Source: Parvibaculum sp.
Lineage (GTDB): Bacteria; Pseudomonadota; Alphaproteobacteria; Parvibaculales; Parvibaculaceae
Reading direction: 5' to 3'
Length of the DNA: 34,571 bases
NCBI GenBank assembly: GCA_030682415.1
Contig: JAUXOE010000230.1
Location: forward strand, 1 to 34,571
The notes under the pieces are model-generated. The model did no database searches. It was not told the origin of the DNA and was given only the letters and a program-made list of their open reading frames with translations. Position 1 is the first letter of the stretch. The number at the start of each line of letters is the position of its first letter. Positions 28,999 through 31,557 of the stretch are shown one piece after another. The translations under genes were made by a program, and so were the position numbers.

Positions 28999-30690
28999 TC
29001 AGTCGGCGAGACCGCAAAAGCGTCGCCGCTCGCCTTCCGGCACCCGCCTGGCGGCGCGATTCGCCCCGCCGATCAGCGCCCGGAAAGAGGCGGTGATGAT
29101 GTTGGGATCGATACCGACGCCGAAAATATCGCCGGCGCCGGCGGGATCGGCGACCTCGATGAAGGCGACCGCCTTGGCGTCCGAGCCCGAGCCGATCGAG
29201 TGCTCCTCGAAATGGCGGAGCTGGACGCCGAGCTTCAGCGCATCGACCAGCGCATCGATCGGACCGTTGCCGAAGCCGACAAGCTCCTCATCCTGGCCGA
29301 AACGGCGTACACGGAGCTTCACGCCCTGCTTGCCGCCTTCGTCGAAGAGCGAATGGCTGCGATACTCGATGGGCTCGACAATCGTCAGATACTCGGCCTC
29401 GAAAATCCGCCAGATATCGGCCGCCGTCACTTCCTTGCCGGTATCGTCGGTCACCTTCTGGACGGCCGAACTGAACTCGACCTGCAGCCGGCGCGGCAGC
29501 TTCAGATCGTATTCGGCTTCGAGAAGATAGGAGACGCCGCCCTTGCCCGACTGGCTGTTGACGCGAATGATCGATTCATAGCTGCGCCCGAGATCTTTCG
29601 GATCGACCGGCAGATAGGGCACTTCCCAGATGTCGCCTTCCTTGCGCGCGCCGAAACCCTTCTTGATCGCGTCCTGATGCGAGCCTGAAAAGGCGGTGAA
29701 CACCAGATCGCCCACGTAAGGGTGGCGCGGATGGATCGGCAGTTGCGTGCAATATTCGGATGTGCGCGCGATTTCGTTGATCTGCGAGAAATCCAGACCC
29801 GGATGAATGCCCTGGCTATAGAGATTGAGCGCCAGCGTGACGAGATCGACATTGCCGGTGCGCTCGCCATTGCCGAACAGACAGCCCTCGACGCGGTCGG
29901 CGCCGGCCATCACGCCGAGCTCGGCGGCCGCGACCGCCGTGCCGCGGTCATTATGCGGATGCAACGACAGGACAATGCCGTCGCGCCGTTCGAGATTGCG
30001 ATGCATCCATTCGATCTGGTCGGCATAGATGTTGGGCGTCGCCATTTCGACGGTCGCCGGCAGGTTGATGACGACCTTGTTGTCGGGCCCCGCCTCCCAG
30101 ACCTTGGTCACCGCGTCGACGACTTCCTTGGCGAAGTCGAGTTCGGTGCCCGAAAAGACTTCCGGACTGTACTGGAAGGTCCAGTTGGTCGAGGGCTGCG
30201 TCGCCGCAATCTCCTTGATCTGATGCGCGCTTTCGGTGGCAATCGCCTTGACGCCCTGCTTGCCCTGATTGAACACCACCTCACGGAAATTCGGCGCGGT
30301 GGCGTTATAGACATGGACGATGGCGTTTTTGGCACCGCGCAACGATTCCATCGTGCGCGCGATCAGTTCCGGCCGCGCTTGCGTCAGCACCTCGATACGC
30401 ACATCGTCGGGCACGCGGCCCTCTTCGATCAGCTTGCGGATGAAACCGAAATCGGTGTCCGACGCCGACGGGAAGCCCGCTTCGATTTCCTTGAAGCCGA
30501 TCTTCACCAGCAGTTCGAACATGCGGAGCTTGCGTTCCGCATTCATCGGCTCGAAGAGCGCCTGATTGCCGTCCCGGAGATCGGTGCTCATCCAGATCGG
30601 CGGCTTGGTGATGGTTTTCGACGGCCATTGCCGGTCGGGCAGGTCGATCGGCTGGAAGGCGCGGTATTTGACGGCGGGGTTCTTCAACAT
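28999..30690 (-). CDS. leuA: 2-Isopropylmalate synthase
   Basis: A 563-residue enzyme that condenses acetyl-CoA with 2-ketoisovalerate, the first committed step of leucine synthesis. The start [16 protein letters not shown] and length mark the longer, actinobacterial/alphaproteobacterial type (LeuA2). The metal-binding catalytic motif is [15 protein letters not shown], and [19 protein letters not shown] supplies the His pair. The C-terminal regulatory domain, which binds leucine for feedback inhibition, spans roughly the last 130 residues, with [16 protein letters not shown] in it. It is preceded by a 190-base leader with a Leu-rich peptide, which suggests control by attenuation. Confidence 0.97.
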
Positions 30691-30793
30691 GACAGCTCTC
30701 GCATCTTCAACGGACGGCGCACAGCACTGTTGGCGTGTCGCTCGCGCGGCGCAAAGGGAAATTCAGGCATCTGTGGGTGAGGTGGATCTGTTT

Positions 30794-30811
30794 TCTGCGC
30801 TCAAGCGCAGA
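30794..30811 (-). promoter_or_regulatory. Hairpin over the leu leader-peptide stop codon
   Basis: tctgcgct (30794-30801) pairs with agcgcaga (30804-30811); on the minus strand the TGA stop (30803-30801) lies in the loop region. The stem would be covered or freed depending on where a ribosome stalls in the Leu codons just upstream. It is not followed by a U-tract, so it is not itself a classical terminator. Confidence 0.55.
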
Positions 30812-30881
30812 GAAGCGCGCCCCGAAGAGCGAGTTCAAGGCCAAGCTTGCGGCCGAAAGAGATATGCGCGTTGCGATCCAT
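30801..30881 (-). CDS. leuL: Leucine-rich leader peptide upstream of leuA (26 codons)
   Basis: A short ORF on the leuA strand from ATG 30881 to TGA 30801. It encodes 26 residues beginning MDRNAHISFGRKLGLELAL. Six of its last 14 codons are leucine (positions 13, 15, 17, 19, 23, 24), all CTT or CTC and none the CTG preferred in nearby genes. This is the pattern of an attenuator peptide whose translation stalls when charged tRNA-Leu is scarce. The promoter at 30888-30916 places transcription start on or within a base or two of the A of the ATG, and no ribosome-binding site is possible, so translation is probably leaderless, as known for trpL in Sinorhizobium meliloti. leuA begins 110 bases after the stop. 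The symbol is used by analogy. Confidence 0.7.
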   Translation of the reverse strand: MDRNAHISFGRKLGLELALRGALLCA

Positions 30882-30887
30882 GAGCGG

Positions 30888-30916
30888 AACATAGGCGGCC
30901 TTGCAAAAACCGTCAA
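30888..30916 (-). promoter_or_regulatory. Strong sigma70-type promoter of leuL-leuA
   Basis: On the minus strand TTGACG (30916-30911), a 17-bp spacer and TATGTT (30893-30888). Six bases after the -10 comes the ATG of the leader peptide (A at 30881), the expected purine start position. The rest of 30691-30800 is untranslated leader of leuA; no U-tract terminator was seen in it by eye. Confidence 0.75.
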
Positions 30917-30951
30917 GACACGGATGAATGGGACAGCGTTCCTGACGGGAC

Positions 30952-31557
30952 TTACATCAACGCCGCGATGTCTTCGGCCATCTTGTCCGGGCCGGTGCCG
31001 GGACCGAAGAGTTTGAGATATTCGCCCTCGGGGCCCATCAGGAAGACGATGGAGGAATGATCCATCGTGTAGTCCTCGTTCGAACTTTCGTCGGCGACCT
31101 TGCGGTAGAAGACATGCCAGGCCTTCGCCGCTGCCGCGATCTGTTCGGGGCTGCCGGTGAGGCCGGTCAGGCGCGGATGGAAGAGCGTGACGTAGCGCGC
31201 CATGACTTCCGGCGTGTCGCGCTCGGGATCGATGGTAATGAAGACCGGCGTGATCTTTTCGGCCTCCGGGCCCAGCGCCTCGATGGCGCTCGCCATCACC
31301 TGCAGCTCGGTCGGGCAGACATCGGGACAGAAGGTGAAGCCGAAATAGATCAGCATGAAGCGGCCGCGGAAATCGGCTTCGGTGACGCTCTCGCCCTGCT
31401 CGTTAACCAGCGTGAAGGGCCCGCCGACGCGGGCGCCGCCCGCCGCCTGCCGGTCGCGGGTCTCGACCGCCGATATGACGAAGCTGGAAATCCAGAGGCC
31501 GGCGAGAACCGCCACCGCGACCCCGGCCACAAGCGCGATGATGCCGTTCCGTGTCAT
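30952..31557 (-). CDS. SCO1/SenC/PrrC-family copper protein
   Basis: A 201-residue protein anchored by one N-terminal membrane span (about 5-30) with a periplasmic thioredoxin fold. The copper-binding CxxxC is Cys77/Cys81 in FTFCPDVCPTEL, and the third ligand is His167 in YTMDHSSIVFLM. Members deliver copper to the CuA site of cytochrome c oxidase or act as thiol reductases. GGAGAG lies upstream of ATG 31557. In Rhodobacter a homologue (senC/prrC) lies between regB and regA; here the RegB-type gene is about 2 kb away on the other strand, past two unrelated genes. Confidence 0.93.
   Translation of the reverse strand: MTRNGIIALVAGVAVAVLAGLWISSFVISAVETRDRQAAGGARVGGPFTLVNEQGESVTEADFRGRFMLIYFGFTFCPDVCPTELQVMASAIEALGPEAEKITPVFITIDPERDTPEVMARYVTLFHPRLTGLTGSPEQIAAAAKAWHVFYRKVADESSNEDYTMDHSSIVFLMGPEGEYLKLFGPGTGPDKMAEDIAALM

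Follow-up and report, generated by a model that had tools for sequence, protein, structure and literature searches.

The window, that is, the whole stretch of 34,571 nucleotides of Parvibaculum sp. that was analysed (contig JAUXOE010000230.1), carries on its minus strand a leuA gene preceded by a short leucine-rich open reading frame (ORF), designated here leuL. In the order of transcription, the features of the locus are as follows:

30952-31557, minus strand: gene upstream of the leader promoter (FTFCPDVCPTEL)
30911..30916, minus strand: -35 element TTGACG, with TTGAC kept in 25 of 25 genus loci
30888..30893, minus strand: -10 element TATGTT, after a 17-nt spacer and 6 nt from the ATG; TAT and the last T are invariant in alignment A2
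30881, minus strand: predicted transcription start, placed by promoter geometry on the A of the leader ATG
30801..30881, minus strand: leader ORF (leuL), 26 codons and TGA, with six Leu codons, all CTT or CTC
30794..30811, minus strand: stop-codon hairpin TCTGCGC[TTGA]GCGCAGA, seven perfect pairs with the stop in the loop; covariation over the class
30754..30793, minus strand: 40 nt rich in C (15) and poor in G (4), a candidate Rho entry site
30749..30755, minus strand: UUUGCGC, read from the sequence as a candidate alternative partner of the 3′ arm GCGCAGA
30696..30702, minus strand: weak Shine-Dalgarno-like sequence GCGAGAG of leuA, read from the sequence
28999..30690, minus strand: leuA, 2-isopropylmalate synthase, long form (TIGR00970, E 6.5e-233)

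The first gene in this list presumably belongs with the SCO1/SenC copper chaperones, which it resembles; no NCBIfam match at 0.001 was found for it. The upstream neighbour is a different one in loci L002, L004, and L111, where the leuA leader is still kept.

The leader ORF, read on the minus strand from 30881 to 30801, is translated as MDRNAHISFGRKLGLELALRGALLCA followed by the stop. Its leucines occupy positions 13, 15, 17, 19, 23, and 24 and are encoded by CTT CTT CTC CTT CTT CTC, all six lying within the last 14 codons. In the five genes of the window, the commonest Leu codon is CTG (CTG 66, CTC 49, CTT 16, TTG 15), and CTT and CTC together make up 44.5%, so the chance that six of six leader Leu codons would be CTT or CTC is approximately 0.008. 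The chance of finding at least six leucines in the last 14 codons is approximately 0.0004, but this stretch was picked post hoc and the comparative evidence given below outweighs its p value. An earlier note on this DNA, made by reading the sequence, had described a 26-codon ORF with six CTT/CTC codons in its last 14 in a neighbourhood where CTG is commonest, a hairpin over its stop, and a promoter TTGACG-N17-TATGTT in front of it. The coordinates and details of the ORF proved correct, the hairpin is indeed there as a perfect 7-bp stem whose loop contains the stop codon, and the promoter is present, ending 6 nt 5′ of the leader ATG.

The most direct comparison is provided by the genus Parvibaculum, represented in the analysis by 27 species, and its 25 leuA loci with an intact upstream region, all of which keep the promoter, the spacing, the frame, the leucine richness, and the stop hairpin. 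In each of them, TTGAC and a TA-type -10 element are followed by the ATG after a gap of approximately 6-8 nt. The leader ORFs comprise 23-30 codons with 6-9 leucines each, and CTT and CTC account for 156 of their 179 Leu codons, compared with the above 44.5% in the window genes. Differences in ORF length are all multiples of three, CTT and CTC exchange synonymously, and the Leu codons persist along with the stop hairpin while the remaining sequence diverges. Loss of the ORF or of its Leu codons in close relatives, a check proposed in the earlier note, was not observed, both being kept in 25 of 25 loci. At the level of sequence comparison, the promoter-to-ATG geometry, the ORF with its frame and Leu content, and the stop hairpin can be regarded as supported.

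It might be argued that the ORF is accidental and that the hairpin is all that counts, perhaps as a protein site or as the 3′ end of the gene upstream, given that the hairpin is the best-conserved part of the leader and constrains the last codons, and that the next gene upstream, which lies on this strand too, has its end at 30952. We regard this as scarcely credible, since the promoter sits between that gene and the hairpin, the frame-preserving indels and synonymous Leu changes are found 5′ of the hairpin, and over the class the leaders are equally rich in leucine while differing in sequence.

The distribution of the leader extends beyond the genus. An ATG opening a short ORF at matching promoter spacing was found at 71 of 91 other alphaproteobacterial leuA loci and at 3 of 91 in the reverse complement, by a rule (ATG 33-40 nt after TTG(A/C)C, ORF of 7-45 aa) that makes no use of the Leu content. 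A stricter rule (TTGAC, 34-39 nt, at least three Leu) yielded 69 class ORFs containing 311 Leu in 1320 aa (23.6%, versus 7.9% in the window genes), an enrichment that is partly circular in view of the three leucines required, while the count of 71/91 is independent of leucine. In a scan of leuA in named genomes covering beta- and gammaproteobacterial, actinobacterial, and a few alphaproteobacterial loci outside the genus itself, 24 of 80 loci, mostly beta/gamma, pass, as does one of 80 in the reverse complement. The plasmid-borne leuA genes of S. meliloti, Sphingomonas, Shinella, Cupriavidus, and Ochrobactrum do not pass the strict TTGAC rule. Two loci failing it carry Leu-rich ORFs upstream of leuA that are unannotated: in L202 (Sinorhizobium meliloti pSymB, CP090106.1), the ORF has its ATG soon after a TATAGG box and ends with SLLLLGLIRGCRVR before the stop, and in L203 (Sphingomonas parapaucimobilis), it ends with LLLRSLRLIRP. 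Since leader ORFs of this kind are short and devoid of a Shine-Dalgarno sequence, gene callers would miss most of them.

As to the transcription start, TTGACG-N17-TATGTT is the sole sigma-70-like match in 30500-31100 (shuffled sequences give a mean of 0.1). With initiation 7 nt after the -10 element and six bases between this element and the ATG, the start is predicted to fall on 30881, and no Shine-Dalgarno sequence was found 5′ of the leader ATG in the window. The promoter geometry fits a leaderless start in all 25 genus loci and in 71 of 91 class loci, the 5′ end being a predicted one throughout. A Leu leader peptide before leuA with such a predicted start, as put forward in the earlier note, thus gains strong comparative support from the sequences. 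It is improbable that the peptide is real but not leaderless, its transcription beginning further upstream: the start is a predicted one and the sequence leaves room for other promoters, but the TTGAC-to-ATG spacing peaks at 35-36 nt in the 69 class ORFs, an SD-like sequence precedes the leader ATG in just two of them, and the promoter is invariant in the genus.

The stop-codon hairpin is retained in all genus loci, L020 having a compensated replacement, CTTCGT..ACGAAG. Copies of the hairpin motif with at most one mismatch occur in the genomes of the family solely at leuA, and the idea of a repeated genomic element was rejected on this ground. Over the class, the arms of the hairpin covary: in one fixed register applied to all 82 loci (13 from the genus and 69 from the class, unselected), the paired fraction is 0.547 versus 0.414 after shuffling of the 3′ column (sd 0.016, maximum of 1000 shuffles 0.477), an excess that is not to be read as a probability because related sequences are present among the 82 rows. 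When the register is slid by 1-3 positions, 32-49% is paired, compared with 56% for six pairs. A hand-chosen subset gives a larger pairing excess, and the unselected 82-locus number is the one to use. The region of the hairpin folds modestly better than shuffled sequences (genus mean z -1.31), while the minimum free energy of the whole leader is no better than that of shuffles (z 0.47). RNAalifold applied to 18 loci recovers the stop hairpin and short helices only, with one pair showing a two-sided change, the divergence of these loci being too small. A further hairpin, 3′ of the stop hairpin, appears repeatedly when the leaders of several relatives are folded; in the window, it is weak (z +0.8).

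A second element, closer to leuA, has been found in many alphaproteobacteria and in six Parvibaculum loci, where a Leu ORF/hairpin bearing CGACTTA lies 75-205 nt before leuA (L014, L015, L017, L019, L020, L112, L024-L027, L029, L116-L121, and many of L130-L200). It is characterized by the near-invariant CGACTTA, Leu codons (the peptide often ending in LRLIGGxRA), and, in many loci, a hairpin of approximately 10 bp; the same heptamer also occurs within the distal leader ORF. The proximal CGACTTA element is absent from the clade of the window. As it is present in other genera of the family, its loss in this clade is the simpler reading of the sequences, and the window would then represent a reduced form of the leader. 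In L014, L015, L017, and L019, the proximal ORF extends into leuA, so that it overlaps the start of this gene and terminates at the TGA within ATGTTGA. In the window, an unrelated ORF of 28 codons (30684-30770, minus strand) ends on that very TGA, so the overlap may only reflect the conserved N-terminus of leuA. Hairpins similar to the proximal one are also seen before leuA in L091, L107, L109, and L110 (Actinobacteria), L063 and L205 (Cupriavidus), L041 (Herbaspirillum), and L035 (Chlorogloeopsis). Judged by eye, they resemble both the alphaproteobacterial proximal element and the actinobacterial LEU elements considered below, suggesting one family that travels with long-form leuA.

All this makes it likely, with a probability of roughly 0.8 judging by the sequences, that leuL encodes a Leu leader peptide with a leaderless start which controls leuA in cis; probably, the leader lets the cell sense leucine. 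How the signal would be passed on to leuA depends on the stretch between the two ORFs. No intrinsic U-tract terminator was found there, either in the window or in the 25 genus loci; a terminator-like match after ORF1 is present in 9 of the 69 class loci, so the output may differ between lineages. Rho entry sites look like bare C-rich, G-poor stretches, and the 40 nt following the hairpin are of this kind: an equal excess of C over G is found in 0.7%, and equal G-poverty in about 0.1%, of the 40-nt segments across the 34.6-kb window, a background consisting mostly of coding DNA rather than of an intergenic set. The stretch is similar in 25 of 25 genus loci, all of them below 1% on the G-poverty measure. 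Both the C-rich stretch and the lack of an intrinsic terminator are thereby supported as sequence features. As the stretch resembles a Rho entry site in composition, Rho-dependent attenuation is the output we prefer, tentatively and at somewhat less than even odds.

The mechanism we infer would operate as follows. The leuA transcript would have as its first nucleotide the A of the leader ATG, or a base no more than two positions away, and the CUU/CUC run would be read by the ribosome with the aid of, presumably, one isoacceptor, tRNA-Leu GAG, so that the level of charged tRNA-Leu would set the position of the ribosome relative to the stop-codon hairpin. With ample leucine, the ribosome would finish translation and depart, allowing the stop hairpin to reform and leaving the C-rich, G-poor stretch exposed; Rho would probably load on this stretch and terminate transcription ahead of leuA. 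At leucine shortage, a ribosome stalled at the Leu codons would mask the 5′ arm of the hairpin, and the GCGCAGA of the 3′ arm would be free to pair with UUUGCGC; this alternative pairing would close the bare stretch, and leuA would be transcribed. Of the partner sequence, (C/T)TGCGC is kept, and invariant, in the closest loci, while the pairing is missing in L016, L018, and L021; in view of its invariance in the close clade, covariation cannot test the alternative pairing.

The same leader peptide could act instead on leuA translation, the position of the ribosome opening or closing the leuA ribosome-binding site. A mechanism of this kind has been proposed for the actinobacterial LEU element, where the run of Leu codons is thought to pair with the leuA SD (PMC1262725), and it would suit a leader in which the intrinsic terminator is absent and the leuA start region pairs, in some folds, with the stretch behind the hairpin. 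However, opening the leuA start region costs no more energy than it does when the leader is shuffled (mean z 0.06 for the 25 loci), and in the window it costs even less (6.3 versus 8.6 kcal/mol); these values apply to RNAs beginning either 3′ of the stop codon or at the last Leu codons, and leave room for weak pairing with earlier codons. The proximal CGACTTA element, moreover, is missing from the clade of the window. We therefore consider a translational output possible but rather unlikely here. Sequestration of the SD/start of leuA as such was rejected on the same opening energies.

With Rho-dependent attenuation retained as the preferred output, an additional activity in trans has to be weighed as well. 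In S. meliloti, peTrpL and rnTrpL act in trans, and a dual function of the leuA leader, with control in cis complemented by a peptide and/or a short leader RNA acting in trans, would be in line with the leaderless layout common to trpL (PMC7298713). In the close clade, as also in L016, L018, and L021, the codons of the N-terminal HIA change synonymously while the residues stay the same, which is a weak hint of selection at the peptide level. Outside the Leu codons and the end encoded by the hairpin, though, the peptide varies freely over the class, and there is no terminator to free a defined RNA, so such a dual function is very improbable. The released small RNA similar to rnTrpL envisaged in the earlier note is not predicted, as a U-tract terminator is absent from the window and from all 25 loci; we see nothing in support of trans action of the peptide.

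One of the known systems to compare is the enterobacterial leu leader (leuL; Leu_leader in Rfam), which has competing hairpins and Leu codons ahead of leuA, together with an SD sequence and a U-tract terminator. Leu codons upstream of leuA are common to both systems, but the SD, the U-tract terminator, and the Rfam match are absent here: Rfam, including Leu_leader, gave no match in the window at the gathering threshold, and eight relatives gave a single chance-level match (E 0.4). Of the features of classical trp/leu attenuators, the ORF with end-product codons and the hairpin over the stop (the 1:2 pause hairpin) are present, whereas the U-tract terminator is missing; GCGCAGA with UUUGCGC is a candidate for the mutually exclusive antiterminator pairing.

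Closer in layout is LeuL1 of S. lividans (MRFGLLLLSCRGEGL), which precedes leuA and is reported to be transcribed leaderless and to lack a typical Rho-independent terminator (PMC8079986). In C. glutamicum, leuA is presumed to have a leader peptide in which four Leu codons follow one another directly (PMC4046766). For the actinobacterial LEU element, a pseudoknot has been proposed that brings the leuA SD into pairing with the run of Leu codons, and the authors of this proposal doubt classical attenuation there (PMC1262725). Their account reports that mutations in the leuA leader peptide of Streptomyces coelicolor gave results inconsistent with classical attenuation, which we count against an attenuation reading of the leader peptide here. 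LeuL1 and the LEU element share with the Parvibaculum leader a Leu-rich leader peptide before leuA, leaderless by prediction in Parvibaculum, and the absence of a typical Rho-independent terminator; they differ in that the LEU element is described as a pseudoknot whose Leu codons pair with the SD of leuA, while the mark of the present leader is a hairpin loop containing the stop codon, and SD sequestration does not exceed that of shuffled sequences. A leaderless Leu leader before leuA is, therefore, a known kind of control, and the novelty suggested in the earlier note is reduced by the Streptomyces precedent (PMC8079986). No description of the proteobacterial leuA family turned up in the literature searched or in Rfam. 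An older survey of proteobacterial attenuators, Vitreschak et al. 2004 (FEMS Microbiol Lett), could mention it. We come close to even odds, although below them, on these leaders forming an undescribed proteobacterial family before long-form (TIGR00970) leuA, defined by a leaderless Leu ORF, a covarying hairpin with the stop in its loop, often a second CGACTTA Leu ORF/hairpin, and no intrinsic terminator; the family would probably act by way of Rho and would be akin to the leuA leaders of Actinobacteria, with the window showing its reduced form.

Outside leuA, the nearest counterpart is trpL of S. meliloti, which is leaderless and whose RNA and peptide both act in trans (PMC7298713, PMC10117765). 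Like leuL, it is an alphaproteobacterial leaderless leader peptide before a biosynthetic gene, the start at the ATG being a predicted one in our case; its attenuator releases a trans-acting sRNA, whereas no terminator was found here. Leaderless short ORFs rich in end-product codons are also represented by the mycobacterial poly-Cys ORFs, which attenuate operons according to the description of Canestrari et al. 2020 in PMC9031893; as described there, they encode cysteine rather than leucine runs and do not precede leuA. Since the layout is recognizable in the sequence and the cultured strain Parvibaculum lavamentivorans DS-1 has it, the working of an attenuator that lacks an intrinsic terminator can now be tested directly. 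More generally, leaderless leader peptides have been known in front of Streptomyces leuA and S. meliloti trpE, and the comparison suggests that for long-form leuA in alphaproteobacteria they are the rule and that they occur in beta- and gammaproteobacteria as well.
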